A DNA stretch of 64,000 nucleotides, taken from positions 62,001 through 126,000 of the forward strand of contig JAKOXG010000018.1 in assembly GCA_029781115.1 (NCBI GenBank). Reading direction: 5' to 3'. Of the stretch, positions 65-54,932 are shown one piece after another. The stretch comes from Candidatus Cloacimonadota bacterium. GTDB lineage: Bacteria; Cloacimonadota; Cloacimonadia; Cloacimonadales; Cloacimonadaceae. How positions within the stretch are numbered: the first letter of the stretch is position 1; each line of letters starts with the position of its first letter. The position numbers and the translations under genes are program-made. The notes under the pieces were generated by a model. It worked only from the letters and a program-made list of their open reading frames with translations. It was not told the origin of the DNA and ran no database searches.

Positions 65-1348
65 TTATTCGTTCTTTTCTTCAATATCCAAACCGTTTTG
101 GGCTTGCTGTATCTCATAGCTGTGCTTCAAAATCCTCACCTTGAGCTGCGGCAGGACTTCGCCGCTGATCACGATGCTGGCGGGTTCCCTCTCCTCATCG
201 GTGAGGAAGTGCTCCAGTTCCTGATCCAGCTCTTGCTCTATCTTGCTTATCTTTTGGGAAATCTCCTCGGTCTGCTGCGTTGAGCCCTCTTGCTTGGCAT
301 GCACCAAATCCTTGGTGAGTTGCATGAGCAGCGTCTTGTAGAAGGAACTGATGGTGATCTCCAACTGGGTAAAGTTCTCCGCACCCTGCTGACCGACGTA
401 GCCGGCCCGGATGCGCTTGATGCTCTGCACGTTGCTGTTGATGATGCCGCCAGCGTCAGAGACCTGCACGCCCAACTCACCCACGAGCTCGCACTGTTCT
501 ATCCCACTGCAATTGACCTCGCCTTTGCACAGCAGGCGTGTGCTGCTGATAAAGCCGCTCTTTACCGAGCCCAAAACCTCTATGCCCGGTTTGCGGCACT
601 CCTCGATCTCCTGCTTTACCAACAGGTCTCCCCCACAATACACTTGGCTTTGGCTGATGCGGCCTGTCACAAGCAGGTTGCCGCCCACCCACAGGGAGCT
701 GTCCACCACGTCGCCCTCCACGTTCAGGTTTACGGGCAGCCGCAAGCCTTGCACCCCTGTCAGGTCACCACTCACATAGAGCTCATCGATGATGTGCATG
801 CGGCCATCGTCATCTATGCTGACATAGCCGGCTTTGGTGCTGGTGAAACGTCCCTTTTCGGGATCAAAAACCACGTTCTCGCCTGCCAGGCTCTTGTCGC
901 CCTCCAGCTGCTTGGGGTCAAAGCTGATCATCTCACCCAGCACGTTGTAGATGCTGCCTTCGCGCTCGAAGATGTTGTCGTTAAAATCTGCCAACACGGT
1001 TCCCGCTTCCAGGCAGGAAAGGTGCGAGATGCGCAGCGGGTCTATATTGGCGCCAAAGTCTTTGGCTTCCTCCACATCAAAGTAGTGGTTGATGGTCTGA
1101 TGGATAGACGTGGCTTTGCACATGGCGATGGGGAATTTGAGATCGTATTCTCTCACGAGGTTGTGCTTGCGGGTATAACGCAAGGCGCCTTCAAAGCCGT
1201 ATTTGATTCCTGCTGCATCGATGAGGTCGAGTATCTCCTGTTCGTCGATCAGCCTGCCTGTCTTCTTGATCGTCAGCCAAGCGGAGAGCCTGTCTTCGCT
1301 TATCTCTAAGATCAGGTTTCCCTGTTTGTTTGTAAAAGTGTCATTCAT
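65..1348 (-). CDS. DUF342 / FapA-like polymer-forming protein
   Basis: A 427-residue cytoplasmic protein. Residues about 150-330 carry glycine-rich, beta-helix-like repeats (GDLTGVQGLRLP, GDVVDSSLWVGGNL, GGDLLVKQEIEE) of the type seen in the DUF342 family, which includes Flagellar Assembly Protein A and resembles bactofilin-type beta-helices. A charged, probably coiled-coil helix follows (about 340-390) and the tail is acidic. Family members are linked to flagella, polar assemblies or surface structures, but no flagellar gene is present here, so the role is unknown. Its start overlaps the stop of the upstream pgeF-like gene by 8 bp, so the two are translationally coupled. Confidence 0.8.
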   Translation of the reverse strand: MNDTFTNKQGNLILEISEDRLSAWLTIKKTGRLIDEQEILDLIDAAGIKYGFEGALRYTRKHNLVREYDLKFPIAMCKATSIHQTINHYFDVEEAKDFGANIDPLRISHLSCLEAGTVLADFNDNIFEREGSIYNVLGEMISFDPKQLEGDKSLAGENVVFDPEKGRFTSTKAGYVSIDDDGRMHIIDELYVSGDLTGVQGLRLPVNLNVEGDVVDSSLWVGGNLLVTGRISQSQVYCGGDLLVKQEIEECRKPGIEVLGSVKSGFISSTRLLCKGEVNCSGIEQCELVGELGVQVSDAGGIINSNVQSIKRIRAGYVGQQGAENFTQLEITISSFYKTLLMQLTKDLVHAKQEGSTQQTEEISQKISKIEQELDQELEHFLTDEEREPASIVISGEVLPQLKVRILKHSYEIQQAQNGLDIEEKNE

Positions 1349-2027
1349 GCTCTATTCCCACTAAATTGATTTGCCTACGGTTGCTGCCGTCTCTGCGGAA
1401 GGAATGGTAGCCACGGTCTGCATGGGTACAATTCATATCTTGATCTATATCTCTAAAAGCCACGCCCGCGCTGAGCAGCTGCTGAAACACAGCTGAGCGA
1501 ATGTCCAACTGATGGTTGTCGTTGAGCCGGGGATGCAGCCCTTGCTCCTGCATGGAGCTGACAAACTGCTCATAGAGCTCGGGGCTCACCTGATAGTGCT
1601 CAGCGCAGATGCAAGCACCCACCCACACGCTGAGGTCTTGCGGCAGGATGCCAAAGTGTGCCCTTAACATATCGATAGCTTTGCCCACAATGTTTTGCCG
1701 GGTGCCTTCGCGTCCGGAATGCAAGGCTGCCACTGCCCGATGTTGTTTATCCATCATCAGGATGGGCGCACAATCCGCAGTGCGGATCATCAGATACTGC
1801 TCCGGCACCTGTGTGATCAAGCCATCCACACCGGCAATCTTCGCTTTATCCCCAAAGCCGGCACCGGAATCGCTCTGGCTGCAGATGTGTATCCGGCTGC
1901 CGTGCACCTGTTCAGCGCTCACCACTTGGGAAAGCGGGATCACCTTATCCTCCAGCCTGATGCAGTCCTGTTGCAATAACTGCCGATATTCAGGCTCTCT
2001 TTTCCCAAGGTAAAAGTAGTTTTTCAT
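1341..2027 (-). CDS. pgeF: YfiH/PgeF family purine nucleoside phosphorylase-type protein
   Basis: A 228-residue member of the DUF152 / multicopper-oxidoreductase laccase-like family (YfiH, PgeF). Characterised members act as purine nucleoside phosphorylase/adenosine deaminase or in peptidoglycan precursor editing. The metal-site motifs are visible: QVHGSRIH near residue 40, TADCAPILM near 83 and ALHSGREGT near 100. The usual HAGWRG is replaced by HSGREG, a variation worth noting. It begins 3 bp after hslU ends and overlaps the next gene by 8 bp. The function is given at family level only. Confidence 0.85.
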   Translation of the reverse strand: MKNYFYLGKREPEYRQLLQQDCIRLEDKVIPLSQVVSAEQVHGSRIHICSQSDSGAGFGDKAKIAGVDGLITQVPEQYLMIRTADCAPILMMDKQHRAVAALHSGREGTRQNIVGKAIDMLRAHFGILPQDLSVWVGACICAEHYQVSPELYEQFVSSMQEQGLHPRLNDNHQLDIRSAVFQQLLSAGVAFRDIDQDMNCTHADRGYHSFRRDGSNRRQINLVGIEHE

Positions 2028-8393: not shown

Positions 8394-8669
8394 AGTCGTC
8401 AGTCGTCAGTCGTCAGTAGTCAGTCGCTGCGCTGGATGCGATGGTTAGTGTACTTTTGGAGCAACCAGTATGGTTTTATGGCTTATGTAGCAAATTCCAT
8501 TTGCTTGCGGCGGTTCGGCGACCGCCGGCTACCTTCTTTGGGTCGCTTTGGCAAGCGACCATACAAGGATCCGTGGGAGAACAAAGAGCTCCAGGGCTAC
8601 CCGGATTGCCACCAAGAGCATGCGTACCCCGAAACCAGCGCAGCGACTGACTACTGACGACTGACGACT
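8394..8669. repeat. Inverted-repeat element bounded by heptamer arrays, with two hairpins
   Basis: The left end carries AGTCGTC-type heptamers running into CTGCGCTGG. The right end is the exact reverse complement: 8401-8435 and 8635-8669 are a perfect 35-bp inverted repeat. Inside are two strong palindromes: GGCGGT/ACCGCC around 8509-8526 and GGTCGCTT-TGGC-AAGCGACC at 8541-8560. No believable gene lies inside. The same boundary and hairpin types recur at 11.9-12.7, 21.7-22.2, 26.9-27.3 and 41.2 kb. Confidence 0.75.
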
Positions 8670-11856: not shown

Positions 11857-12717
11857 GCCGACTGCGTCGGACGGTTTTAGGTGTTAGGGCTGCGCTGGTT
11901 TCGAGGCTTTCTATTTTTTCCACGGATACACACGGATGTGCACGGATGGGGGCAGCTTCGCCGCAGGTGTTAGGGGTTAGGTGTTAGAGCTGCGCTGGTC
12001 TCGAGGATGAGAATGCTCTTGGTGGCAATCCGGATAGCTCTGGAGCTCTTTGTTTTTCCACGGATGCCTTGTATGGTCGCTTGCCAAAGCGACCCAAAGT
12101 AGGTAGCCGGCGGTTGCCATACCGCCGCCAGCAGGCGCCAGCCTGCTTTCTACCACAACCCCAAAACTAACCACATCTATACCAAAAACACGAGTAACTC
12201 CGAAGCCAGCGCAGCTACTCACAACTGCGGCGAAGCCGACACAGTCGGCCTGGAGAGCGAGGTCATGTGAGGTTGGTCGCTATGGCAAGCGACCATACAA
12301 GAGCAGGCGTATCTTTGGCTCCAGCGCAGCTCTAACACCTAAAACCTAACACCTAACACCTGGACGACGCAGTCGGCCCGGAGAGCGAGGCCATGTGAAG
12401 CAACGGCGGTTCAGCGACCGCCCGTACAAGAGCAGGCGCATCTTTGGCTCCGGCGCAGCTCTAACACCTAACACCTAAAACCTAACACCTAAAACCTGGC
12501 CGACGCAGTCGGCCCTCCTTCCTTACTGAGCCTCCCGGTGATTACCCGGAGCCTCCCGGGAAAAACCCGAGTATCTCCACGGCATCTCCGGGCGGGTGAG
12601 TAAGGGACAAGTGGATAGCGAGGTCATGTGAAGCAGCGGCGGTTCAGCGACCGCCCGTACAAGAGCAGGCGCATCCTCGAGACCAGCGCAGCGACTGACT
12701 ACTGACGACTGACGACT
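11857..12717. repeat. Intergenic repeat mosaic, heptamer arrays and hairpin modules
   Basis: Gene-free. AGGTGTT-type arrays on the plus strand (11873-11888 and 11966-11988) each end in CTGCGCTGG. The same type in reverse lies at 12332-12361 and 12461-12497, and an AGTCGTC-type array in reverse at 12692-12717. Between them are CACGGATG-type 9-mers (about 11930-11948), a GGTCGCTTGCCAAAGCGACC hairpin near 12076-12095, GGCGGTTCAGCGACCGCC hairpins, GGCCGAC/GTCGGCC palindromes, and one copy of the 88-bp element. The arrays face each other, so the whole block is roughly inverted about its centre. 11740-11856 carries the promoter above and nothing else I can identify. Confidence 0.75.
12520..12607 (+). 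repeat. 88-bp structured element, copy 1
   Basis: The outer stem is CCTTACT/AGTAAGG. Inside are a CTCCCGG-TGATTA-CCCGGAG hairpin with one mismatch, a GGG-AAAAA-CCC hairpin and a third GC-rich stem. Near-identical copies lie at 27169-27257 (reverse), 41448-41535 and 48528-48614. Confidence 0.75.
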
Positions 12718-12786: not shown

Positions 12787-15700
12787 TTAGGGGGTTGCTT
12801 TCCGACGGCCATTGATATCTTTCATATCTCTGACGATCGGATTATCATCTGCCGGTACGATATTCATTTTTGACAGATTGCGCAATGCCAACAGGCCTCT
12901 TGCTGAGTCACGGTAGGTATTGGCGGTGACTTTGTAGAAGCCTTTACCTGCCGTTGTGCTCATGGTGGCGGTGTTGGTATAGACGGTAGCTGCAGGCACA
13001 GTACCGAAGTTGTAGGGATCTTCAGATACGTAGACCTTGTAGTTGTAGGCATAGGGAATTGCCGGCCAATCCAGCACAGCGTTTGTGTCGGAGAGTGTCA
13101 CACTCACCGTAGGAGCGGCTAATGTGGTCACCAAGGAAGCGGGATCCATGATGAATATGGTGTAGGGCACATTGTTGGATGCATATCCACCAGTGGGGGC
13201 GGCGTGATCCAATGTTCCATCAGCGCCATCGGAATAGACATATCTGGTTCTACTGGGATAGTTGGCATCCGGTGTGTTGAGCCAGAAGCAGTTTTGGACC
13301 CAGCCATCCTCCCAGGTTTTACTGGTTCTGATAGCCAGGTTTCCGCCCGTGTAGGTGAAGGGCGTGATGGGGATATGGACTGCGTTGATGCCTTCGGGGC
13401 AGAAGATGTTGCCATCAAATACGAGTTGATAGCCGTCCCAAGGCAGCCAGGCGCCCACGTTTACAGCATCCGTATTTTTCATCCAGATTTGCACAGGGGA
13501 AGTGTGATCTGTCTGGAAATGGTTGTAGTAGACGAGAGCGTTGATCGTGCCACCGGTAGCTTGGACTTCGCTTGCCAGGTAGACAGTCTCTGCCACGAAA
13601 TCCTTGTAATATACGTTGAAGGGATATACGTTTGACATCTGTAGGTTGCCAGCATCGCCTATGGTAAGGAATGACGAGCTTGCTGCGTAGACGGTCACAT
13701 CCTTTGCTGCGGTGGTGTTGTTGGCGACATTCTGGTCACCGGCAAGCACTACTTCAGCGTAAATCGCTGTAGTGCCTGCGGCGGTGGGAGTCCAGCTAAC
13801 AGTATGCACCTTGCTTTCCAAGGAATTGATGACATCAGAAACCTGCAGTTGGCCCAGCGTGGCACCGGAGCCCTGCTCTTTGATGTAGACAGTGTAGTTG
13901 GACTGAGCATCCATGCCTGCGTTGTTCACAGTCACATACTGTTCCTTGGCGACGCCAACTTTACCATATGGACTGCCACCAAGGAAGAGGGCTTCCAGAT
14001 CAGCAGCAAAAGCCTCGGAAACGCGGATATCATCCACAGCGATGAAGTCCAGATTAACCGGTGACTTGGCATGCCAGCCTAAGTAATAGAGACCAGTGGT
14101 GACAGGGGTGAAGAACAGGTCCATTTGAGTCCAATTAGGATAGGTGAGCTGACCATCAAACAGAGCAGCATTGGCGGTCATGGAAGCCACGGTGGGCTGT
14201 GTGCCCCAGTGTACTGCCAATTGTTCGGGAACTTCATTCCAACCTTCGCCCTTCACCTGGAAGCTTATCCTGTAGGCCTGATTGGCTTGCATGCTGAAGG
14301 GGACGGTGATCATCCACTCATCTTTGGGATAAGAAGAGCTGTAGAATACCGCCGCAGCATTGGGTAGAGAGGTAGCACCAACACCGGAAGAGGCTTTCCA
14401 GGGTCTGTTAGCCGGGGAGGAAATAATAGTCCATTGAGCCGGCATTTCACCCGCTGCAAGAGCATCGAAGTTCTCTGTCCAGGGGTAGCTATAAACGACA
14501 GGGTCGTCCTCAATCACAAAGGAATAGGAGGTGGTTTGCACAGCATCGCCATGAGTATTGATGGCTTGGATAGTCCAGTAGTAACGCTGTCCGTAAGTGT
14601 AGCTATAGGGAGGATCTGCGAGCACTGGATTGAGGCCGGTGTTTGTAGTTTCCCAATAGGTGCCACTAAACACATCATCCGGATCAGTGCTCAGGAATAC
14701 GGCATAATAATCCGGTACTCCGCCATTGTTCAGGTCAGGACTCCATTTGAGCTCAAATCCAGCCTTGGGAAGACCCGTAGCTCCATCAGCAGGAGAGACG
14801 AGAGTGGGTGCAGCAGGGGCACCGGCAATAGGCTCGTCTATATATATCATCATGTTGGGACGATAGTTGCTGAGAGTTCCCGTAGTGACGGTATTCCATT
14901 CAGTACTGTCGTGGCGATAATACAGAGTCTTATTTACTGTAGTATCAGTATAATAGGTACTGGCATTCAGCACTGCCGATGGCAGCAAATCATAGCTGGT
15001 TTGGACCACCAGGTTGGACACTCCATCCCAGTAGAAGGGGGAAGTGAGATTGTGGCTGTTCCATCCGGCTACGGGAGTATAAGTACCTGTACCGGTTGAA
15101 TACGCTTGGGTGAGACCGGTCAGGAAGTTGGTATCGGCAAACTCCGTGGCTGTAGTAGCACCGATGCTAATGGTGAAGTTTGGCAGGTTGGCTGAGGTGT
15201 TGGGATTTTGAACGTTGAAGCCAAGGGTTTTGATGATACCTGCTTGGGCTCCCAACGCTGTCAGCTCAGCGGCAGTGAATATATACTGCTCACGGCCATT
15301 CTTGTAGTATCCACCATAAACACATGGAGCACCTGTATTGCTATTGGCAGTCGTTCCCTCACCCACGAAGAAGATATCTTCCGGCAGGATATTGGCACTC
15401 AGAGCCACATCGTAGTTTGTTCCACCATACGCAATACGCAAGGTAGCGGAGATGGGGCCTTCTGTGGTGCTCTGCACCGTTACGGGAACAGTTACAGATT
15501 CATCCCTTCCCAAATCTACTGGCAGGGCTGGGTCGGTGGTTCCAACGGAGAAATCCGCTGCATTGGGACCAACAAAACTGAAGCTGGATGTGCTCAGGTC
15601 TATGGTTCCCGAACCTTCGTTTGTAATGGTGACCAGCACTGGATTGCTGAGGGTGTTATAGAGCAAGGTACCAAAGTTAATGGCATCAGGCGTGTAGGTG

Positions 15701-18700
15701 AAGACCGGAGCCGTGGGCGCGAGTGTCACCGAGATGTCGTCAATACTCATATACATGGGATTATAAGCGACCACGCCATGGATGCCAATCCAATGGATAC
15801 CAGTGGTTTCCGGGGTGAAGGTTCCTCTGATCTGCTGATAATCTCCACTGACAACGCCGGTTTGTTCCACGATGGCGGTCATGCCATCAATGGTGCCAGA
15901 GCTGCCGTAGTAAAGACCAACGGTGGCATTAGCTGCGGTGGTTGTATTCTGCCTGGCCCAGACTTCCACGTCGTAGGCTACCCCACCTTGCAAGGAGAAG
16001 GGTCTCATCAACCAGGCATTGCTGCTCCAACGCAAGGTGGCATTGAAATCACCATTACGTGGGGTACGGTAGTAATCAGTGTTGGTGGAGTTGGCCATCC
16101 AATAATTGCTACCACTCTCCAGATGCTGCACCCAGTTTTTCACTTGAGCACCATGCGTCTGCCCCTCTTCAAAGCCTTCAGTGAAGGGGATGGTATAGAC
16201 GGTCGGGTCTGCCATGGTGGTGAAGCTGCGCGGCGTAGCTGGGGCACTTTCGTCTGTAGTGTTCACCGCTGTCACAGTCCAATACAAGGTGCTGCTGTAG
16301 GGCAAGCCTACAGTGGGTGTGAAGCTGGTAGTCGTGCTGGTGCCGATCAGCGTGGTAGGCATAGTGCTGGCATCACAATAGATATTGTAAGATGTGGGCA
16401 CACCACCTGTGCTGGAAGCAGTCCAGGTGAAGGTGGGATTAGGGTTCAGATCAGTAGCAGCGTCTGCGGGAGCAGTAAGTGTGGGAGCCTCAGGGGCAAT
16501 AGCAGCGAAATCCGGGCCAATGACATAGTCTACATAGTAGGTGGCTGCATACAAACCGGTTTGGAAGCCAAGGTAGTAGTTGTTACCAGCCAGCGTGCTG
16601 AGGTCTATATCGACATTGTACCAGGTGTTGCTTGCGTCGAAGGTGATATCGCTTCCCAATTGAACCCAGCTGACCCTGTCTGTGGAGTATACCACTTGCA
16701 AGATGCCACTGGTATTGGTGCAACGGGTCCAGAAGTTGAGTCTGCTATCGGTATCAATGGCGAGCATAGGCGTGCTGAGCACGTATTGTGTGCTGGCAGA
16801 GCCATACTTGGAGGCAGACTTTGTTCCATGGAAGGGAGTGGTGCTGGTGCTCCAGTTACCCTTATCCCAGCCCGCAGGTGGGAAGCTGGTGGCTTCAAAG
16901 CTCTCAAACAGAGCGTTTTCGCTCAGAGCTCTTCCGCTTAGGGCCACATCATAGTTATTCCCATCATGAACCATGCGCAAGGTGGCAGTATGTGTGCCTA
17001 CTGCGGTGGGGTTGTAACGAACCGGGATGGTGCCGCTTTCGTTTGTGGCAAGAGCAAAAGGCAGGTTGCTGTTATTGAGCTCAAACATCGCCGCATCAGT
17101 TCCGATGATGCTGACGTTTGCTACAGCCAGGTTCAGGGTACCTGCACCCGTGTTTGACACAGTTACATCCTGATAGGCCATGGGAGTATTGACAAAGCCA
17201 GCGCCAAAGTCAATTGTAACAGGTGCATAGGCGAATACGGGTGAGGGTGGAATATCGCCAAACTGCATCTTGATATTGGCATAGGCATTCCTCTGGCTGT
17301 AGTACGCTGCGGCGTCGGGAGGAGTGGCAGGATTAGGGTTTGTGTTATCGTCGTAGTAGAGCAAGGCACGTGTGCCGGTTACAGAAGTGGAGTAGAAGTA
17401 CCCTGAGCTACCACTGTTTCCAGGCGTGTTTTCGTAAACGGCGATCAGGAGGTTGTCTGTGTTGTTGTAGACGAAGGGGGCATCCAGGGTGATATCGACC
17501 CATCCCGCTGTAGCTGGAAGGTTTAACTCGCCGGTGTAGACCTGGGTGAGATTGTCATAAGGCACCCAATCCTGACCATCGGTGAAAGAGTCTTTATTGG
17601 TGTGTGCCATATAGACCGTCCAACCTTTGCTGTTGGTTCCTGCTGCGGCACCGTTCCAGTAGAAGGCGATTTGCTCAACGCGCTTGTCAGGTATGTTGAT
17701 ATCGCTCTGGAGATAGATGGTCTGACTGTAATTGAAGTTGTAGTAGGGATAGATGGGCAGGTAGCCATTGCTAGTTCCATTACCGATATACACCAAACCT
17801 TCCGGGAGGGTGGTGAAGCTGCGCGGTGTAGCTGCAGGACCATCTCCGACTGCGTTCACAGCCTTCACAGTCCAGTACAAGGGGGTATTGTAGGGCAGAG
17901 GAGTGGTAGGTGTGAAGCTGAGCTCTGTGCTGGTACCGATCAGCGTGGTGGGGTTGGTGTTGGCATCACAATAGATCTTGTAGGATGTGGGGATGCCACC
18001 CGTGGTGGGAACAGTCCAGGTGAAGGTGGGAGTAACGCTCACTTCGATAGCAGCGTCCGCTGGTGAAACAAGCCCAGGAGCACCCGGGGCAAGGGGTGTG
18101 ATATTGGGACCAACAACCATATCCACGTAGTAGCTGCCACCAGTTAAACCGGTGCGGAAGCCGATATAGTAGTTGTTACCAGCCAGCGTGCTGAGGTCTA
18201 CATTGACATTGTACCAGGTGTTGGGCTCATTGGGCTCAGCAAAGCTGAAATCGCTGCCCACCTGAGTCCAGTTGGTTCTATCCGTGGAATATACAACTTG
18301 CAGATAGGCGGTGGAATTGGTGCAACGCGTCCAGAAGTCGATGCTGCTATCGGCAGTAACGGTAAGCATGGGGGTGCTGAGCACATACTGTGTAGAGGTA
18401 GAACCAGTTACGTTGGCAGATGCGCTCCCTTGCACAGGGGTTATGAAGGTAGTGCGTCCCCAGTTACCGGCATCCCATCCCATAGGCGGGAAGGTGGTGT
18501 CTTCAAAGCTCTCCAAGAGAGCGTTTGCACCCACGGCTCTGCCGGTCAGGGCTACATCATAGTTGTTGCCACCATAGCTCATGCGCAAGGTGGCAGTATG
18601 TGTACCTGTTGCGGTGGGGTTGTAGCGGACCGGGATATTGCCACTTTGATCTGCTGTGAGCGCAAGAGACTGGAGGTTGGGATCAACTTGGAACATGGCC

Positions 18701-21150
18701 GCATCTGTTCCCACGATGCTAACATCTCCCGGGTTCAGAGTCAGCGTACCAATACCGATATTGGTGACAGTGACATTCTGATATGCTGTAGCAGTATTGA
18801 CGTAGGTAGTATAGAATTCTATGGCGTCAGGAGCATGGGAGAAGATGGGAGCGGTTGGCGTCTCACGCACGCGCACCTGATCCACGTAGAGATAGTTATC
18901 GCCTCCGGCTTCGGTTGATTCCCCGTAGAAGGCAATGTATTTGGTACCCACATGTGCACTGAGATCTATGGCAATAGCTTCGCCCAAGGGAGCGATATTA
19001 TCATACACATCAGTAGAGCCGGCGTTATCCCATCTTTTGAGTTCTGTCGCACCTGACATATCAGGGTTGTCAGAGATCAGGACGATGAACTTGTCATCTT
19101 GTTGTTCGCCAGGGGTAACTGCAACGCCGCTACCATTCCAGTATGAGAGTGCCAGATCAAAATCCAGTTGGTAACCAGTAGCAGGAATAGCGATGGGTGG
19201 TGTGACTAACCAGTATCTGGTGGTAGTGCTGAAAATATTAATCCTGGCACAGGGATTACCGGAATCGGAAACATTGGCGAAGTTGGCGGCTCTGCGCCAA
19301 CCATAGGTAGTAGGGGTGAGCGTGTAGGGATTCTGATCATCATACAAGCCTGAGTAGCGTGCCCATTCTGCAGGCGGGAAGGTGGTATTGGTGAAACCCT
19401 CCACCCAGGGGAAATCATAGATGGTGGGATCATAACAGGCGCCACTGACGTTCAGGGTGGTATTGGCACGTCCATCAGAGATGGTAAAGGTGGCACTATG
19501 GGTACCAACAGCCGTGGGAGCATATTTAATGCTGAAGGTTGTGGTTTCACCCATAGCCAAAGACACTGGCCATTGAGGGGCGTCCGTCACGCTAAAGAAG
19601 CCATCGCTTGTGGGGCTGATACCGGTGACGTTTAGCGTGCCGCCTCCAGCATTCATGATGGTGAAGGTTTGGCTGCTGGTGGTGTTGATAATGAGGCTGC
19701 CAAAGTCATACCCTGCGGGATTGATGCTAAAGACAGGATTGGTTGGCAGGGGCACGAACAACATGAGCACGTTTGGTAGATTAGTGCTCAGCGACCCGTT
19801 ATCTGTAGGTTCGCTACCGTCTTTATACCAACGTTGATTTGAGTCTGTGGTACCGGTAGTGTAGTGGAAATAGGGAATATTTTGATATCCCGCTCCGGAG
19901 CCACCATAGTTGACTTCCACACCGATGAGCAGGTTGCCACCGGTGTAAGGAAATGGCGCGTCCAAGGTTAAATTGTGCCAGCCTGCGCTGTCAAAGGCGT
20001 ATTCCCCCTCTTTTACCACAGTGGCACCAGTGGTGAAATCAGCCCAGGGCATCTGAGCAAGTGCTGTCTCGGAGGTAGGTTTGATGTAGATCTTATAGGG
20101 AATTAATGTGGCTTTGGGAGTAGCTACACTCCAGCCCAAGGTGGTGATTTGGCCAGTCTGCCCGATTTGAGCTTCCGTGTAGAGTGATAAGGAACGAGTG
20201 TATCCATAGTTGACATAAAATGGATATGTTTGGTTGGAAGTTCCCGTGCCGATAATCACCCCATTGACAAATTCAAAGGTACCCGTGGCAGAGGCAGGCG
20301 AGACACCGATACTGTTGCGAGCTTTCACATACCAGGTGTGCGTGCCTACGCTTGTAGAGGCAGGCAGTGCATAAGTGGTTCCCTCCTGATTGCTGCTGAC
20401 CATGGTATCGTCGATATAGACGTCATAGCCAGTAGCATCAGCAGGTCCAGTGGGCTGAGTCCAGCATAGGAGCTGACCAGCCATCACCTGAGCACCATTT
20501 ACGGGTGATACAAGTGTGGGAGCCGCAGGTGCCACAGTGTCTGGGAAGACAAGCTGGATGCGGTTGATGTCGCTATACATTGTTGAATATGCTGCACCAG
20601 GATTGTCAATATCAAAATCAGTGCTATCACTACGATAATACATACCGGTATCGGCTCCGCTGGTGAAAGCTCCACAGTACAAATATGATGAAGTCCAGCC
20701 GGAAGTATACTGGTGTACAGCAACGACCAAGTTATCAGTATTGTTGTAAGTGAAGGGGGTAGTCAGAGGGATCTCCATCCAGTTACCCGCCGCGGGCAGC
20801 AGGGAAGATACATCACCATCAAAGACTTCGGTTAGGCCAGCAGGTGTTTCCCAATCCGAGGCACTGGAAAATGCCGTTTTCTGAGTGTGTCCCAGGTAGA
20901 TTCGCCAACCTTGACTGTTGGTTAAACTACCCGACGCATAGTAGAAACGGATTTTACTTATTGAACCACCTTGACCAATTTGGCTTTGGGTATAGATCTG
21001 CTGCGAATAGGTGAAGTGATAGTAACCATCAATGGGCAATCTTCTGGTAGTTGCAGTTCCATCACCTATTTGCACGGTAAGCGCATAGCTCAGGCTGAAG
21101 ATACTCAGCATCAGAGCTATGAGCACGATTAAGGATAAATATCGTTTCAT
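12787..21150 (-). CDS. Giant secreted multidomain adhesin-like protein (2787 aa)
   Basis: A 2787-residue exported protein with signal peptide MKRYLSLIVLIALMLSIFSLSYA. It is built from repeated modules in rotating order. One is a roughly 150-residue unit beginning IGxGTxxxxxLP(I/F) and containing SQxIYxxSxI (about 25-200, 300-470, 1150-1300, with further relatives later). Others are fibronectin III-like domains with PxLVSPxxGA(T/Q), choice-of-anchor-D/ASH-like domains (PxxxxFGxxxxNTxxxxxVTVxNxGxGTL), and cleaved-adhesin/MAM-like jelly-roll domains (FExTxFPPxGWDxGNW, STPMLxxxxxSxxxFWTRCTN). There is no catalytic motif. Unlike its neighbours it lacks the PNPF-type C-terminal sorting domain; the end is short and basic (NGRRKATP). 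An AAGGAG ribosome binding site precedes the ATG. A surface adhesin or polymer-binding role is inferred from the modules. Confidence 0.85.
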   Translation of the reverse strand: MKRYLSLIVLIALMLSIFSLSYALTVQIGDGTATTRRLPIDGYYHFTYSQQIYTQSQIGQGGSISKIRFYYASGSLTNSQGWRIYLGHTQKTAFSSASDWETPAGLTEVFDGDVSSLLPAAGNWMEIPLTTPFTYNNTDNLVVAVHQYTSGWTSSYLYCGAFTSGADTGMYYRSDSTDFDIDNPGAAYSTMYSDINRIQLVFPDTVAPAAPTLVSPVNGAQVMAGQLLCWTQPTGPADATGYDVYIDDTMVSSNQEGTTYALPASTSVGTHTWYVKARNSIGVSPASATGTFEFVNGVIIGTGTSNQTYPFYVNYGYTRSLSLYTEAQIGQTGQITTLGWSVATPKATLIPYKIYIKPTSETALAQMPWADFTTGATVVKEGEYAFDSAGWHNLTLDAPFPYTGGNLLIGVEVNYGGSGAGYQNIPYFHYTTGTTDSNQRWYKDGSEPTDNGSLSTNLPNVLMLFVPLPTNPVFSINPAGYDFGSLIINTTSSQTFTIMNAGGGTLNVTGISPTSDGFFSVTDAPQWPVSLAMGETTTFSIKYAPTAVGTHSATFTISDGRANTTLNVSGACYDPTIYDFPWVEGFTNTTFPPAEWARYSGLYDDQNPYTLTPTTYGWRRAANFANVSDSGNPCARINIFSTTTRYWLVTPPIAIPATGYQLDFDLALSYWNGSGVAVTPGEQQDDKFIVLISDNPDMSGATELKRWDNAGSTDVYDNIAPLGEAIAIDLSAHVGTKYIAFYGESTEAGGDNYLYVDQVRVRETPTAPIFSHAPDAIEFYTTYVNTATAYQNVTVTNIGIGTLTLNPGDVSIVGTDAAMFQVDPNLQSLALTADQSGNIPVRYNPTATGTHTATLRMSYGGNNYDVALTGRAVGANALLESFEDTTFPPMGWDAGNWGRTTFITPVQGSASANVTGSTSTQYVLSTPMLTVTADSSIDFWTRCTNSTAYLQVVYSTDRTNWTQVGSDFSFAEPNEPNTWYNVNVDLSTLAGNNYYIGFRTGLTGGSYYVDMVVGPNITPLAPGAPGLVSPADAAIEVSVTPTFTWTVPTTGGIPTSYKIYCDANTNPTTLIGTSTELSFTPTTPLPYNTPLYWTVKAVNAVGDGPAATPRSFTTLPEGLVYIGNGTSNGYLPIYPYYNFNYSQTIYLQSDINIPDKRVEQIAFYWNGAAAGTNSKGWTVYMAHTNKDSFTDGQDWVPYDNLTQVYTGELNLPATAGWVDITLDAPFVYNNTDNLLIAVYENTPGNSGSSGYFYSTSVTGTRALLYYDDNTNPNPATPPDAAAYYSQRNAYANIKMQFGDIPPSPVFAYAPVTIDFGAGFVNTPMAYQDVTVSNTGAGTLNLAVANVSIIGTDAAMFELNNSNLPFALATNESGTIPVRYNPTAVGTHTATLRMVHDGNNYDVALSGRALSENALFESFEATSFPPAGWDKGNWSTSTTPFHGTKSASKYGSASTQYVLSTPMLAIDTDSRLNFWTRCTNTSGILQVVYSTDRVSWVQLGSDITFDASNTWYNVDIDLSTLAGNNYYLGFQTGLYAATYYVDYVIGPDFAAIAPEAPTLTAPADAATDLNPNPTFTWTASSTGGVPTSYNIYCDASTMPTTLIGTSTTTSFTPTVGLPYSSTLYWTVTAVNTTDESAPATPRSFTTMADPTVYTIPFTEGFEEGQTHGAQVKNWVQHLESGSNYWMANSTNTDYYRTPRNGDFNATLRWSSNAWLMRPFSLQGGVAYDVEVWARQNTTTAANATVGLYYGSSGTIDGMTAIVEQTGVVSGDYQQIRGTFTPETTGIHWIGIHGVVAYNPMYMSIDDISVTLAPTAPVFTYTPDAINFGTLLYNTLSNPVLVTITNEGSGTIDLSTSSFSFVGPNAADFSVGTTDPALPVDLGRDESVTVPVTVQSTTEGPISATLRIAYGGTNYDVALSANILPEDIFFVGEGTTANSNTGAPCVYGGYYKNGREQYIFTAAELTALGAQAGIIKTLGFNVQNPNTSANLPNFTISIGATTATEFADTNFLTGLTQAYSTGTGTYTPVAGWNSHNLTSPFYWDGVSNLVVQTSYDLLPSAVLNASTYYTDTTVNKTLYYRHDSTEWNTVTTGTLSNYRPNMMIYIDEPIAGAPAAPTLVSPADGATGLPKAGFELKWSPDLNNGGVPDYYAVFLSTDPDDVFSGTYWETTNTGLNPVLADPPYSYTYGQRYYWTIQAINTHGDAVQTTSYSFVIEDDPVVYSYPWTENFDALAAGEMPAQWTIISSPANRPWKASSGVGATSLPNAAAVFYSSSYPKDEWMITVPFSMQANQAYRISFQVKGEGWNEVPEQLAVHWGTQPTVASMTANAALFDGQLTYPNWTQMDLFFTPVTTGLYYLGWHAKSPVNLDFIAVDDIRVSEAFAADLEALFLGGSPYGKVGVAKEQYVTVNNAGMDAQSNYTVYIKEQGSGATLGQLQVSDVINSLESKVHTVSWTPTAAGTTAIYAEVVLAGDQNVANNTTAAKDVTVYAASSSFLTIGDAGNLQMSNVYPFNVYYKDFVAETVYLASEVQATGGTINALVYYNHFQTDHTSPVQIWMKNTDAVNVGAWLPWDGYQLVFDGNIFCPEGINAVHIPITPFTYTGGNLAIRTSKTWEDGWVQNCFWLNTPDANYPSRTRYVYSDGADGTLDHAAPTGGYASNNVPYTIFIMDPASLVTTLAAPTVSVTLSDTNAVLDWPAIPYAYNYKVYVSEDPYNFGTVPAATVYTNTATMSTTAGKGFYKVTANTYRDSARGLLALRNLSKMNIVPADDNPIVRDMKDINGRRKATP

Positions 21151-21201
21151 AATATCTAAGCTCCTTAAAGTAGATATTTTTAAGGTTGTTAGGGGAGTAG
21201 G

Positions 21202-21238
21202 CTTTGCCTATCTTAGGGCCATAGGCTTATAGGCAAAG
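21202..21238. other. Inverted repeat in the leader of the giant gene
   Basis: CTTTGCCTAT and ATAGGCAAAG form a perfect 10-bp inverted repeat around a 17-nt loop, about 50 bp upstream of the giant gene start. It could be an operator or an RNA hairpin; no T-tract follows on either strand. Confidence 0.4.
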
Positions 21239-22199: not shown

Positions 22200-22571
22200 T
22201 TAGGGGGAGGACGTTTTTAACCTGGTGCGCATGGTGCTAAGCATTCGGCCAATTTCGTCACACAGAGACAAGGGTGTCTTGGCATCTTGCTCACTGAGAA
22301 ATTTAAGCCGGATTGACAGTAGTAGTTGAGTTTCCAATTCGCTTAATGAACCTTGGGCAATAGAAAGAAAGCGCAAATACTCCTGCCTGGAATCCCTGCC
22401 TTTCCCTTCAGCAATGTTGGAAACTACAGATACTGCTGCTCTGCGCATCTGGTCTGTAAGTGAATACAGCGCAGCTTTGGGAAAACCCGCTGTTATCTGG
22501 TAAATCATCTCAGCAAGGGACATCCCCTTCTGCCACACCATCAAGTCTTTATAACTCTTAATCTTGTTCAT
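22200..22571 (-). CDS. Four-helix-bundle protein (23S rRNA IVP/Avd-like), copy B
   Basis: A 123-residue member of the same small helical family, with SYKDLMVWQKGMSLAEMIY, LYSLTDQMRRAAVSVVSNIAEGKGR and EYLRFLSIAQGSLSELETQL as the typical signature. I start it at the ATG at 22571, the same start as copy C; the eight extra codons of the longer frame would be read from heptamer repeats. The array begins 5 bp upstream (AGGGGTT, ATGAT, ATG) and may supply the ribosome binding site. The stop TAA is read from the GTGTTAGGGGG heptamer on the other side. It differs from copy C at only 5 of 123 residues, so the copies are recent. Confidence 0.88.
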   Translation of the reverse strand: MNKIKSYKDLMVWQKGMSLAEMIYQITAGFPKAALYSLTDQMRRAAVSVVSNIAEGKGRDSRQEYLRFLSIAQGSLSELETQLLLSIRLKFLSEQDAKTPLSLCDEIGRMLSTMRTRLKTSSP

Positions 22572-22576
22572 ATCAT

Positions 22577-22660
22577 AACCCCTAACCCCTAACACCTAAC
22601 ACCTAACACCTAACACCTAACACCTAACCCCTAACACCTAACACCTAACACCTAACACCT
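22577..22660. repeat. Heptamer array, 12 units, upstream of gene B
   Basis: Twelve uninterrupted units, AACCCCT or AACACCT on the plus strand (AGGGGTT/AGGTGTT on the minus). From low to high coordinate the order is two AACCCCT, five AACACCT, one AACCCCT, four AACACCT. It overlaps the last two codons and the stop of the metallo-hydrolase gene and ends 5 bp from the ATG of gene B. Confidence 0.9.
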
Positions 22661-23488
22661 AAACTCCCAATGCACATTATCGTGGTTCAGCAGCAGCTTG
22701 CCGCCTCTTTCCTTGATAGTCTGGTGGATATACTGTTTGGCTAAGTAAGTTTCTTTGCGGTTGACGTCGTAGGCAGAGGTGATAGCCAAAGGTAGATGGA
22801 AAGCGGTGGGGATAATATCGGCAGGATAGATGTAGAATCCGTCTTGGGCTTCGATCTCAACGATCTGGCTGCCCACGCTGTGTCCGCCCGTCTTTTTCAC
22901 TTTGACGCCCGGAGCGATTTCGGCATCTCCGTCCACCAGAGTGAGTTGCAGTTGTGAGTCGCAACCAGTATGGTCGCTTGCCACAGCGACCCCATCTCTC
23001 ACCTGCATCTTTTCTTCCAAAGGCTGCAATTGATTGGGATAATCATAAGCCGCCTGGTTCAAGCCATCGGGGTTTTTGGCCATTTCCCACTCTGCCTTTT
23101 GGCACCAGAGCCGGGCATTGGCAAAGGTGATTTTATCTTCACCTTCATGGGAGGTGATCAGCCCGCCCGCATGGTCAAAATGCAGGTGACTGAGGATGAC
23201 GTCCGTGACGTCCGATGCCTGATAACCCAGCGCCGCCAAAGACTTTTCCAAGATATATTCGGAAGGCTTGTAGATCTTGATTTGCTTTTCGCTGAGTCGG
23301 TTGCCGATGCCGGTATCCACCAGAATCACACGCCCGTGACCCACGATAAGGAGCAGGTCGAGGGCGAGTCTGATGCGGCGCCGCTCGTCCGTGGGCTCTT
23401 TTTTGCCCCAAAGAGCCCAAGGATTCACGCCCATCATGGCGCCGCCATCGGTGTAGTAATGGCCGGCGTCTACCTTGAAGATCTTCAT
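22652..23488 (-). CDS. Metallo-beta-lactamase-fold hydrolase with repeat-derived segment
   Basis: A 278-residue zinc hydrolase of the MBL fold, of the lactonase-like type, with the metal site HLHFDHAGG at about 100-108, a later His in TGGHSVGSQ and Asp in YPADIIPT. The substrate is unknown. Two oddities. The last two residues (Arg-Cys) and the stop codon are read from the heptamer array, so the native C terminus has been replaced or trimmed. Residues about 166-181 (VAVASDHTGCDSQLQ) are encoded by a copy of the intergenic hairpin/heptamer repeat inserted in frame (22944-22993). The gene begins directly after khpB ends and looks like the distal gene of the rpmH-yidC operon. Confidence 0.85.
   Translation of the reverse strand: MKIFKVDAGHYYTDGGAMMGVNPWALWGKKEPTDERRRIRLALDLLLIVGHGRVILVDTGIGNRLSEKQIKIYKPSEYILEKSLAALGYQASDVTDVILSHLHFDHAGGLITSHEGEDKITFANARLWCQKAEWEMAKNPDGLNQAAYDYPNQLQPLEEKMQVRDGVAVASDHTGCDSQLQLTLVDGDAEIAPGVKVKKTGGHSVGSQIVEIEAQDGFYIYPADIIPTAFHLPLAITSAYDVNRKETYLAKQYIHQTIKERGGKLLLNHDNVHWEFRC
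22944..22993. repeat. Intergenic repeat module inserted in frame within a gene
   Basis: The stretch holds GTTGTGAGTCGC (AGTTGTG-type heptamer end) and TATGGTCGCTTGCCACAGCGACC, nearly the same hairpin as the intergenic copies near 12072-12095 and 41258-41281. It lies inside the metallo-hydrolase coding sequence and keeps the frame open. Confidence 0.7.
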
Positions 23489-26912: not shown

Positions 26913-27145
26913 CTCTGAGCAAAAGCGAGATCAGCTACAGAAAGGGTTTGTCCACGGATGATCACGGATGCACACGGATGGAGGGGCGGCTACGCAGGTG
27001 TAGGGTCGCTCGCTGGAGCGACCAGCGTACTCTGAGCAAAAGCGAGATCAGCTACAGAGAGGGTTTGTCCACGGATGATCACGGATGCACACGGATGGAG
27101 GGACGGCTACGCAGGTGTAGGGTCGGTCGCTGGAGCGACCAGCTT
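26913..27145. repeat. Direct duplication of a 118-bp module
   Basis: Two adjacent near-identical copies (26913-27030 and 27031-27145). Each contains TCTGAGCAAAAGCGAGATCA, a GTCCACGGATG/CACACGGATGG 9-mer region, CGGCTACGCAGGTGTAGGGT, and a GGTCGCT-GG-AGCGACC hairpin. Parts recur at 41.1, 41.6 and 47.2 kb with CACGAATT in place of CACGGATG. No coding potential is evident. Confidence 0.75.
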
Positions 27146-41037: not shown

Positions 41038-41782
41038 AGTCGTCAGTCGCCAGTAGTCAGTAGTCAGTCGCTGCGCTGGTTTCAGAGATAAGCGTACTCT
41101 GAGCAAAAGCGAGATCAGTTACAAATAGGGTTTTCCCACGAATTACACGAATTACACGAATTTGGAGGGCATAAAGGGGCGGGTCACGCAGGGCTGGGCG
41201 TGCTTTTTATGAGAAGCGAGATCAAAGACAACAATACGAAAGTCCACGGATGCCTTGTATGGTCGCTTGCCAAAGCGACCCAAAGAAGGTAGCCGGCGGT
41301 TGCCATATCGCCGCCAGCTGGCGCAGCCTGCTTTCCAACACAACCCTACAACAATCCGCATTGCCTCCACTTTCACACCCATCTTTGCCTCTTGCGAAGC
41401 TCTCACAACTCACAACTCACAACTTGCCGGCGCAGTCGCCCCCCTCTTCCTTACTGAGCCTCTCGGTGATTACCCGGAGCCTCTCGGGAAAAACCCGAGT
41501 ATCTCCACGGCATCACCGGGCGGGTAAGTAAGGGACAAGTGGAGCTTGCAAGTCGTCAGTCGCTGCGCTGGTTTCAGAGATAAGCGTGCTCTGAGCAAAA
41601 GCGAGACCAGCTACAGAAAGGGATTTCCCACGAATTACACGAATTAAGGGGGCCAGCTTTTGCCGGCCCCCTTCCTTATATTCTACGGTCGTTTTTACTC
41701 AGAGCACACGCATCTCCGAGACGTGCGTCAGCCCCTAGAACCTAACACCTAACACCTAAAACCTGGCCGACCCCCGTCGGCC
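41038..41782. repeat. Repeat mosaic between the two C25 genes
   Basis: Heptamers of three kinds: AGTCGTC/AGTAGTC at 41038-41070 and about 41550-41567, CACAACT (AGTTGTG reversed) at 41402-41424, and AACACCT at 41732-41764. Hairpin GGTCGCTTGCCAAAGCGACC lies near 41262-41281. There are twin TCTGAGCAAAAGCGAGA-CACGAATTACACGAATT modules near 41097-41160 and 41589-41645, a GGCCGAC/GTCGGCC palindrome at 41766-41782, and the 88-bp element. The right end touches the stop codon of C25 paralog 2. Gene-free. Confidence 0.75.
41448..41535 (+). repeat. 88-bp structured element, copy 3
   Basis: Compared with copy 1 it changes CTCCCGGG to CTCTCGGG, which makes a clean CTCGGG-AAAAA-CCCGAG stem, and TCTCCGGG to TCACCGGG. 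Changes that keep or improve pairing suggest the RNA or single-strand form matters. Outer CCTTACT/AGTAAGG stem intact. Confidence 0.75.
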
Positions 41783-53685: not shown

Positions 53686-54932
53686 TACATCACCTCCTTG
53701 ACCTTTCTAAGGATATCGTTTGGAGTAAGCATCTGTCCGTTGACCTTGGTGAGACCCACCACATTGCCTTCACTCTTGTCTCTGGTCAGGCGTTTGATCT
53801 CACGGATAAACTGGCCTTGGTTGAGCTCCGGAACGATGACAGCCTCAACGTCTTGCAACATCTTGCGCACCGCTTCATCGGGGAAGGGCCAGATGGTGAG
53901 CGGACGCAAGAGCCCGAGCTTGATGCCTTCGCTGCGAGCGATGGCTACAGCGGCTTTGGCAGAGCGGGCGGTGATGCCTGCGGCGAAGATGGCGATCTTG
54001 GCATCTTCCATCTGATGGCTTTCGATCTGAACCAAGTCACGGATATTGTAGGTGATTTTACGACGCAAGCGAGCCATCATTTCGGCTGCTTCCGCGGCTT
54101 TATTGGTGGGGAAGCCGAGTGCGTCGTGAGTGAGGCTGGTCACGTGGAATCTATATCCTTCGCCATAGCTGGCCAAAGGTGAGAGATACTTTTGGTCTTT
54201 GTCATAGTGTTTGTACCAATGAGGTGGCACGTTGGGCTTGATTCTGCTGATCACACGCGTCTTTCTGAGGTCTGGCAACAGCACGGATTCCCTCATGTGG
54301 CCGATCACTTCATCCAGTAAGAGCACCACGCAGGTGCGGTATTTCTCGCTGAGGTTGATAGCTCTAATGGTGAGCTCATAGCTTTCTTTGACGCTGTCGG
54401 GATAAAGGACGATAGCCGGGCTGTCACCATGTGAACCCCAGCGGGCTTGCATGATGTCACCCTGGGAAGGGCTGGTGGGCATACCCGTGGATGGGCCTGC
54501 CCTCTGAACGTTTACCACCACGCAGGGCGTCTCGGTGATCTTGGCAAAGCCAATGCCTTCCTGCATCAGGGAAAAACCGGGGCCACTGGTGGCGGTGAGA
54601 GCCTTGGCTCCTGCTAATGATGCACCGGCGATGGCGCAGATGCTGGCAATCTCGTCTTCCATCTGGATAAAGGTGCCGCCGCGCTTGGGGAGCTCACGCG
54701 CCAAGATTTCGGCGATCTCTGTGGAAGGTGTAATGGGGTAGCCGGCGAAGAAGTTGCAACCGGCATCCAAGGCTCCATAGGCCACGGCTTCATTGCCCTG
54801 CATCAGCACGTTTTTGCGCTCATGCTTCTGCTCCAGTTCCTCCAGGGGACCGGGGACTTTCACTTCTACTTCGGCAACTTTGGCTTTGGTCTTGGGAGCT
54901 TTTTTCTGGCTTTCTAATTTTGCTTTTGGCAT
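53685..54932 (-). CDS. korA: 2-oxoacid:ferredoxin oxidoreductase, alpha subunit
   Basis: A 415-residue alpha subunit. I start at 54932 (MPKAKLESQKK), which has AAGGAG in front. The first 45 residues are a Lys/Pro-rich extension not found in most KorA. The core starts MQGNEAVAYGALDAGCNFFAGYPITPSTEIAE, then SGPGFSLMQEGIG and VNVQRAGPSTGMPTSPSQGDIMQARWGSHGD. The family's oxidoreductase partner domain lies at about 280-400. Spaced 14 bp from korD. Confidence 0.94.
   Translation of the reverse strand: MPKAKLESQKKAPKTKAKVAEVEVKVPGPLEELEQKHERKNVLMQGNEAVAYGALDAGCNFFAGYPITPSTEIAEILARELPKRGGTFIQMEDEIASICAIAGASLAGAKALTATSGPGFSLMQEGIGFAKITETPCVVVNVQRAGPSTGMPTSPSQGDIMQARWGSHGDSPAIVLYPDSVKESYELTIRAINLSEKYRTCVVLLLDEVIGHMRESVLLPDLRKTRVISRIKPNVPPHWYKHYDKDQKYLSPLASYGEGYRFHVTSLTHDALGFPTNKAAEAAEMMARLRRKITYNIRDLVQIESHQMEDAKIAIFAAGITARSAKAAVAIARSEGIKLGLLRPLTIWPFPDEAVRKMLQDVEAVIVPELNQGQFIREIKRLTRDKSEGNVVGLTKVNGQMLTPNDILRKVKEVM

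Follow-up and report, generated by a model that had tools for sequence, protein, structure and literature searches.

A REP-type palindromic repeat lies in frame within a lactonase-like hydrolase gene of a Cloacimonadota genome

The window analysed here, a stretch of 64,000 nucleotides, comes from contig C4 in a draft genome of 2.25 Mb in 22 contigs (G000), and on its minus strand, at 22652–23488, lies a gene for an MBL-fold, lactonase-like metallo-hydrolase with a 278-residue ORF that is interrupted in frame. The protein scores 60 bits against the Pfam Lactamase_B model (cut-off, 22.7) and 165 bits against the NCBIfam model of the YtnP lactonase, under the cut-off of 425. Residues H101, H103, D105, H106, H203, D224, and H269, which correspond to the metal ligands of MBL enzymes, are all retained in the alignment. 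Nineteen extra residues sit between the segment that follows the HxHxDH motif and the strand preceding the GGH metal ligand, and outside of this segment the protein is ordinary. A protein search matched the hydrolase in 77 of the 124 genomes of the phylum, its own included. A scan of viral contigs for homologs returned two distant loci.

The extra residues are encoded by 57 bp at 22944–23000 (plus-strand reading, limits within a few bases) that are missing in relatives. A preliminary description of this DNA had proposed that an intergenic repeat is inserted in frame within the metallo-hydrolase gene, and an alignment of orthologs had been set beforehand as the test. Both the hairpin and the heptamer end on which the proposal was based were confirmed inside the 278-residue ORF, and across 30 of the 77 matching genomes (29 others and its own) the exact segment is carried by one genome only, with none of the 29 other orthologs, taken from genus mates as well as from other families, possessing it. 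The extent of the segment had been underestimated, at about 16 residues and 50 bp (22944–22993). Within the insert, a repetitive extragenic palindrome (REP) unit at 22968–22991 (plus strand, antisense to the hydrolase gene) consists of a GTAT head and a 20-bp hairpin, GGTCGCTTGCCACAGCGACC, at 22972–22991 (plus strand). It is preceded at 22951–22962 (plus strand) by GTTGTGAGTCGC, the end of a heptamer (GTTGTGA)n repeat present as a single unit, with 5 bp between the heptamer end and the GTAT. A second, weak hairpin (GTTGC/GCAAC) is unrelated to the REP, and, with one REP only, the insert is not a REPIN (two inverted REPs acting as a unit). A search for a target-site duplication yielded only TGCA, present at both edges of the insert and 57 bp apart, a 4-bp match that is compatible with chance.

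At the DNA level, the nearest genus mates in the genome search, G028 and G032, each show a gap of exactly 57 bp against the hydrolase gene, best placed at the same point in both. As both of these genomes carry the repeat elsewhere and not at this site, the insert most simply postdates the split from them. Based on the first alignment for each ORF, this is the sole gain of at least six residues among the window ORFs that match the G028 or G032 contig, with the exception of a large repetitive ORF (12790–21207) that aligned at 45%. On the minus strand at 12787–21150, a 2,787-residue ORF is built from modules that recur along its length, and the G028 contig contains several stretches related to it.

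The hairpin belongs to a repeat family that is abundant in this genome. Allowing up to three mismatches, the window has five occurrences where 0.00 are expected, and the absence of any match in 100 shuffles excludes chance. Allowing up to two mismatches, the genome holds 108 copies, compared to 0 in the reversed control. Among 49 genomes of the family searched with up to one mismatch, the hairpin was found 101 times in G000, 41 times in G032, and 37 times in G028, with single matches in G033 and G048 and one match in the reversed control (in G012), such that practically all copies of the REP belong to three genomes of a single genus. A single strand of the 20-bp hairpin, with its 7-bp stem, is predicted to fold, and its length falls within the 20–40 bp of REP palindromes. 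A head of the REP type (GTAT, GTAG, or GTAC) precedes 99 of the 102 copies located in G000 (GTAT, 84; GTAG, 11; GTAC, 4; other, 3), GTAG proper being present in only 11, which makes the family a variant of the usual GTAG form; the 78 copies in G028 and G032 have GTAT (38), GTAC (21), GTAG (13), and other heads (6). In the window, intergenic copies are located at 12071–12094 (plus strand, GTAT and hairpin), 41257–41280 (plus), 8541–8564 (minus), and 12275–12298 (minus), and a GTAG variant lies outside any conserved ORF at 27000–27023 (plus). Nearly all copies are intergenic: of the 108 hairpins in G000, 102 were examined, and one was inside a conserved gene (the hydrolase) and one made up the 3′ end of another (L148, position 1278), while ORF inspection revealed no clear interior case among the 78 copies in G028 and G032.

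The heptamer end, the 12-mer GTTGTGAGTCGC, occurs six times in G000 (reversed control, 0), twice in G028, three times in G032, and not in the three other genus mates, and it usually terminates (GTTGTGA)n arrays. Between genes of the window, at 22560–22665 and 41390–41425, there are arrays of the heptamers CCTAACA and CTCACAA, (CCTAACA)n and (CTCACAA)n, which resemble short tandem heptamer repeats. At two places in G000, a REP-like hairpin is found about 40 bp downstream of a heptamer end on the same strand (L212, located by pattern, and L220, by eye). The preliminary description had pointed to near matches of both parts at 12.07 and 41.26 kb; the hairpin does match there, but the heptamer differs from that of the insert in its order, distance, or orientation relative to the hairpin. 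Because spacing, order, or orientation vary between the insert and other copies, the insert shares its building blocks with the intergenic DNA but is not a fixed module of heptamer and hairpin. The suggestion that the module moves as a unit is accordingly borne out for the 24–27-bp REP core and not for its flanks: the best matches elsewhere in the genome cover 27 of 27 nt, in two copies of an array on contig C19, while the genome search gave no full match for the 24 bp that precede the REP core or the 9 bp that follow it, only the 27-nt core being repeated and no source being found for the other 30 bp.

The array on C19 adjoins a gene of 221 residues (L127:850–1515, minus strand) with matches to the Y1_Tnp and REP-associated tyrosine transposase (RAYT) models. 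It scores 24 bits against Pfam Y1_Tnp (PF01797; cut-off, 23) and 63 bits against NCBIfam NF047646 (E 2.5e-17), under the cut-off of 80, and a phmmer search against solved structures returned no match at E 0.1. The protein possesses the HUH motif NHVHV, with HVH at residue 129, as in Y1 HUH transposases of the IS200/IS605 type. Its nearest REPs (814–837, minus strand; 1531–1554, plus strand) are inverted around the gene, the arrangement of a REPtron, and there are 13 REP copies within 5.3 kb of its surroundings. A paralog 74% identical (L198; G000:C20:41885–42547) is surrounded by a second hairpin, GTACGGGCGGTCGCTGAACCGCC, of the type GTAC GGGCGG..., and a RAYT of G028 (L199, contig C45) has a third type, GTAC GGGCGC..., on one side. 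The second, GTAC-type hairpin occurs 70 times in G000 and, among the six genomes of the genus, is likewise found in G000, G028, and G032 only. That each paralog lies near its own hairpin type suggests co-specialisation of transposase and repeat.

The 57-bp segment is thus a REP insertion, and the proximity of its closest copies to a transposase gene indicates that the insertion was probably RAYT-driven. Overall, it is very likely that a REP (GTAT head and hairpin), along with some dozens of adjoining bases, the heptamer end among them, was copied into the hydrolase coding sequence after the split from the two nearest sequenced relatives. Because the acquired DNA measures 57 bp and contains no stop codon in the frame that is read, the gene has stayed open and its product is longer by 19 residues. 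The RAYT, as a single-strand transposase of the Y1 HUH kind, is the likely agent that would have cut and pasted the REP copy, the source may have been an array similar to that on C19, and the hydrolase is presumed to fold and work with the added loop.

The alternative with most weight leaves the RAYT out of the insertion. A fragment of intergenic mosaic bearing the REP could have entered by template switching or end joining during repair, assisted by TGCA, which stands at both edges of the insert at a distance of exactly 57 bp. The flanks of the REP core in the insert, which do not match the REP family, would fit such a patchwork, as would the second gene described below, which holds a long mosaic of several repeat kinds and more than one REP. 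Further, G032 has 41 REP copies, yet no RAYT of this group was detected there at E 1e-10. Set against this route are the closest copies, which lie in the array next to the C19 transposase, and an arrangement of REP and RAYT that is the very one by which REPtrons are defined, and, while it retains an appreciable share of the probability, insertion without the RAYT is judged the less probable course.

Two other explanations would remove the insertion itself, and both are highly improbable. If the 19 residues were ancestral and had been lost in other lineages, some of the aligned orthologs, sampled from the same genus out to other families, might be expected to keep them, and none of the 29 does, while the DNA in question is a repeat abundant only in three genomes of one genus. 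An assembly artefact, for which a draft of 22 contigs and a common repeat might give occasion, is scarcely more credible, as both unique flanks come from the same ortholog when a false join at a repeat would alter a flank; the 5′ side is collinear with the contigs of both relatives for 3.7 kb, and the frame is kept. A REP insertion in the lineage of this genome, with the RAYT as its probable agent, is therefore retained as the reading of the locus.

With regard to the state of the protein, relative-rate counts gave no indication of faster evolution in the window lineage. With G013 as the outgroup, there are nine changes specific to the window and 10 specific to G028, and 11 and 11 when the window is compared to G032; for the other five outgroups, the counts for the window and G028 run from 6 and 15 to 8 and 6. 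Pairwise Ka/Ks of the hydrolase is 0.124 and 0.132 between the window and the two relatives and 0.090 between G028 and G032, compared to 0.068 and 0.060, and 0.076 between the relatives, for the first 210 codons of the neighbouring gene, all near saturation (Ks about 0.9). Both the rate and the Ka/Ks comparisons span the whole divergence and not just the time since the insertion. These values fit a gene still under constraint, and some slight relaxation is possible in the window hydrolase, as its Ka/Ks lies a little above the value between the two relatives. Among solved structures, the best homolog is 3esh. In the profile alignment to 4zo2, nine additional residues fall exactly at the insert junction, and 4o98 and 4le6 have none there; this suggests a place that tolerates length change and lends indirect support to the surface loop predicted in the preliminary description. 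An AlphaFold model built from three sequences (the window, L021, and L022, the latter two duplicating two of the 29 aligned other genomes) had a pLDDT of 34 and was set aside.

Repeats of this kind also contribute to other genes in the genome. Among 65 of the 70 GTAC-type copies of G000 that were examined, one was found inside a gene, which encodes 286 residues on the minus strand of contig C10 (G000:C10:272687–273544; L148:1288–2145) and has no Pfam or NCBIfam match. The protein was matched in 19 of the 49 family genomes, its own included (E 1e-5), mostly over the C-terminal part, and the N-terminal stretch is conserved with G032. Linking these two parts, approximately 85 residues are encoded in frame by a heptamer pair, a GTAC-type REP, and TTCGTG units. 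The G032 ortholog (L333) has a different mosaic at this position, with 72–73% identity to intergenic DNA of the window (12103–12226 and 41286–41424). The last codons and the stop of the C10 gene in G000 are themselves a REP, and a GTAC-type REP likewise forms the last residues and 3′ end of a ThiF/TcdA-like gene on C13 (L329:298–1065, plus strand). Based on the hydrolase insert, the linkers of differing mosaics, and the gene ends and stop codons supplied by REPs, it might tentatively be proposed that, in this small clade, mosaics of REPs and heptamers, spread by one or more RAYTs, repeatedly become coding DNA, from which new loops, linkers, and gene ends continue to arise, although as a general statement this is regarded as doubtful.

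Several other candidates were set aside. The possibility that many copies of this REP lie in genes was rejected, as the ORFs next in length that span a copy of one or the other REP type (L083, L099, L109, L318, L124, and L115) gave no Pfam match. The repeat precedes the conserved domain in L150 and L313, as it does in L225 of G028, the last being judged by eye only. A generic hairpin finder listed eight hairpins in the window, an incomplete set that missed the GTAC-type copies; one of the eight, at 53926, looks like a chance hairpin within a conserved gene.

REP elements have been characterized as hairpins preceded by a head, in most cases GTAG (PMC8266576, PMC2817692), and a 2013 study (PMC3733652) describes REPs within the ORFs of a number of species, over half of them in dimers or groups that encode 20–30 residues and some supplying stop codons, along with transposases of the REPtron type. 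The preliminary description of the hydrolase as a rare direct case of repeat-driven protein change was for this reason overstated, and palindromic elements of Rickettsia have likewise been described in frame within protein genes (PMC10969869). As in the intragenic GTAG/CGTC REPs of PMC3733652, a four-base head is followed by a hairpin, with most copies intergenic and few in frame in genes. The repeat differs in a head that is mostly GTAT and not GTAG, in a target that is a lactonase-like hydrolase and not a repair gene, and in a host related to the Cloacimonadota, a group that a word search of that paper did not find; word searches on Cloacimonadota names likewise returned no relevant report of REPs in that group. 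In REP/RAYT (TnpA-REP) REPtrons (PMC2817692, PMC8266576), the transposase gene stands between two inverted REPs and each paralog has its own REP type. Two inverted REPs bracket the gene here as well, although its 221-residue transposase matches the RAYT model weakly and cleavage at the GTAT head is putative. The Rickettsia elements (PMC10969869) share a palindromic repeat in frame within a protein gene, but are approximately 150 bp with a conserved encoded peptide and many in-frame insertions, compared to a 57-bp insert with a 24–27-bp core here and one interior insertion among 102 copies examined, which places this repeat outside of that class.

In our judgement, few clean cases bring together the repeat, the empty site in near relatives, a likely transposase, and an intact frame, and the present one permits a direct test of the effect of an acquired 19-residue loop on an enzyme, while the gene on C10 indicates that longer mosaics can also become protein. 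As intragenic REPs were described in 2013 (PMC3733652), the hydrolase insert leaves the general picture unchanged and is not a first, but a clean further case of a phenomenon on record for a small number of other bacteria.
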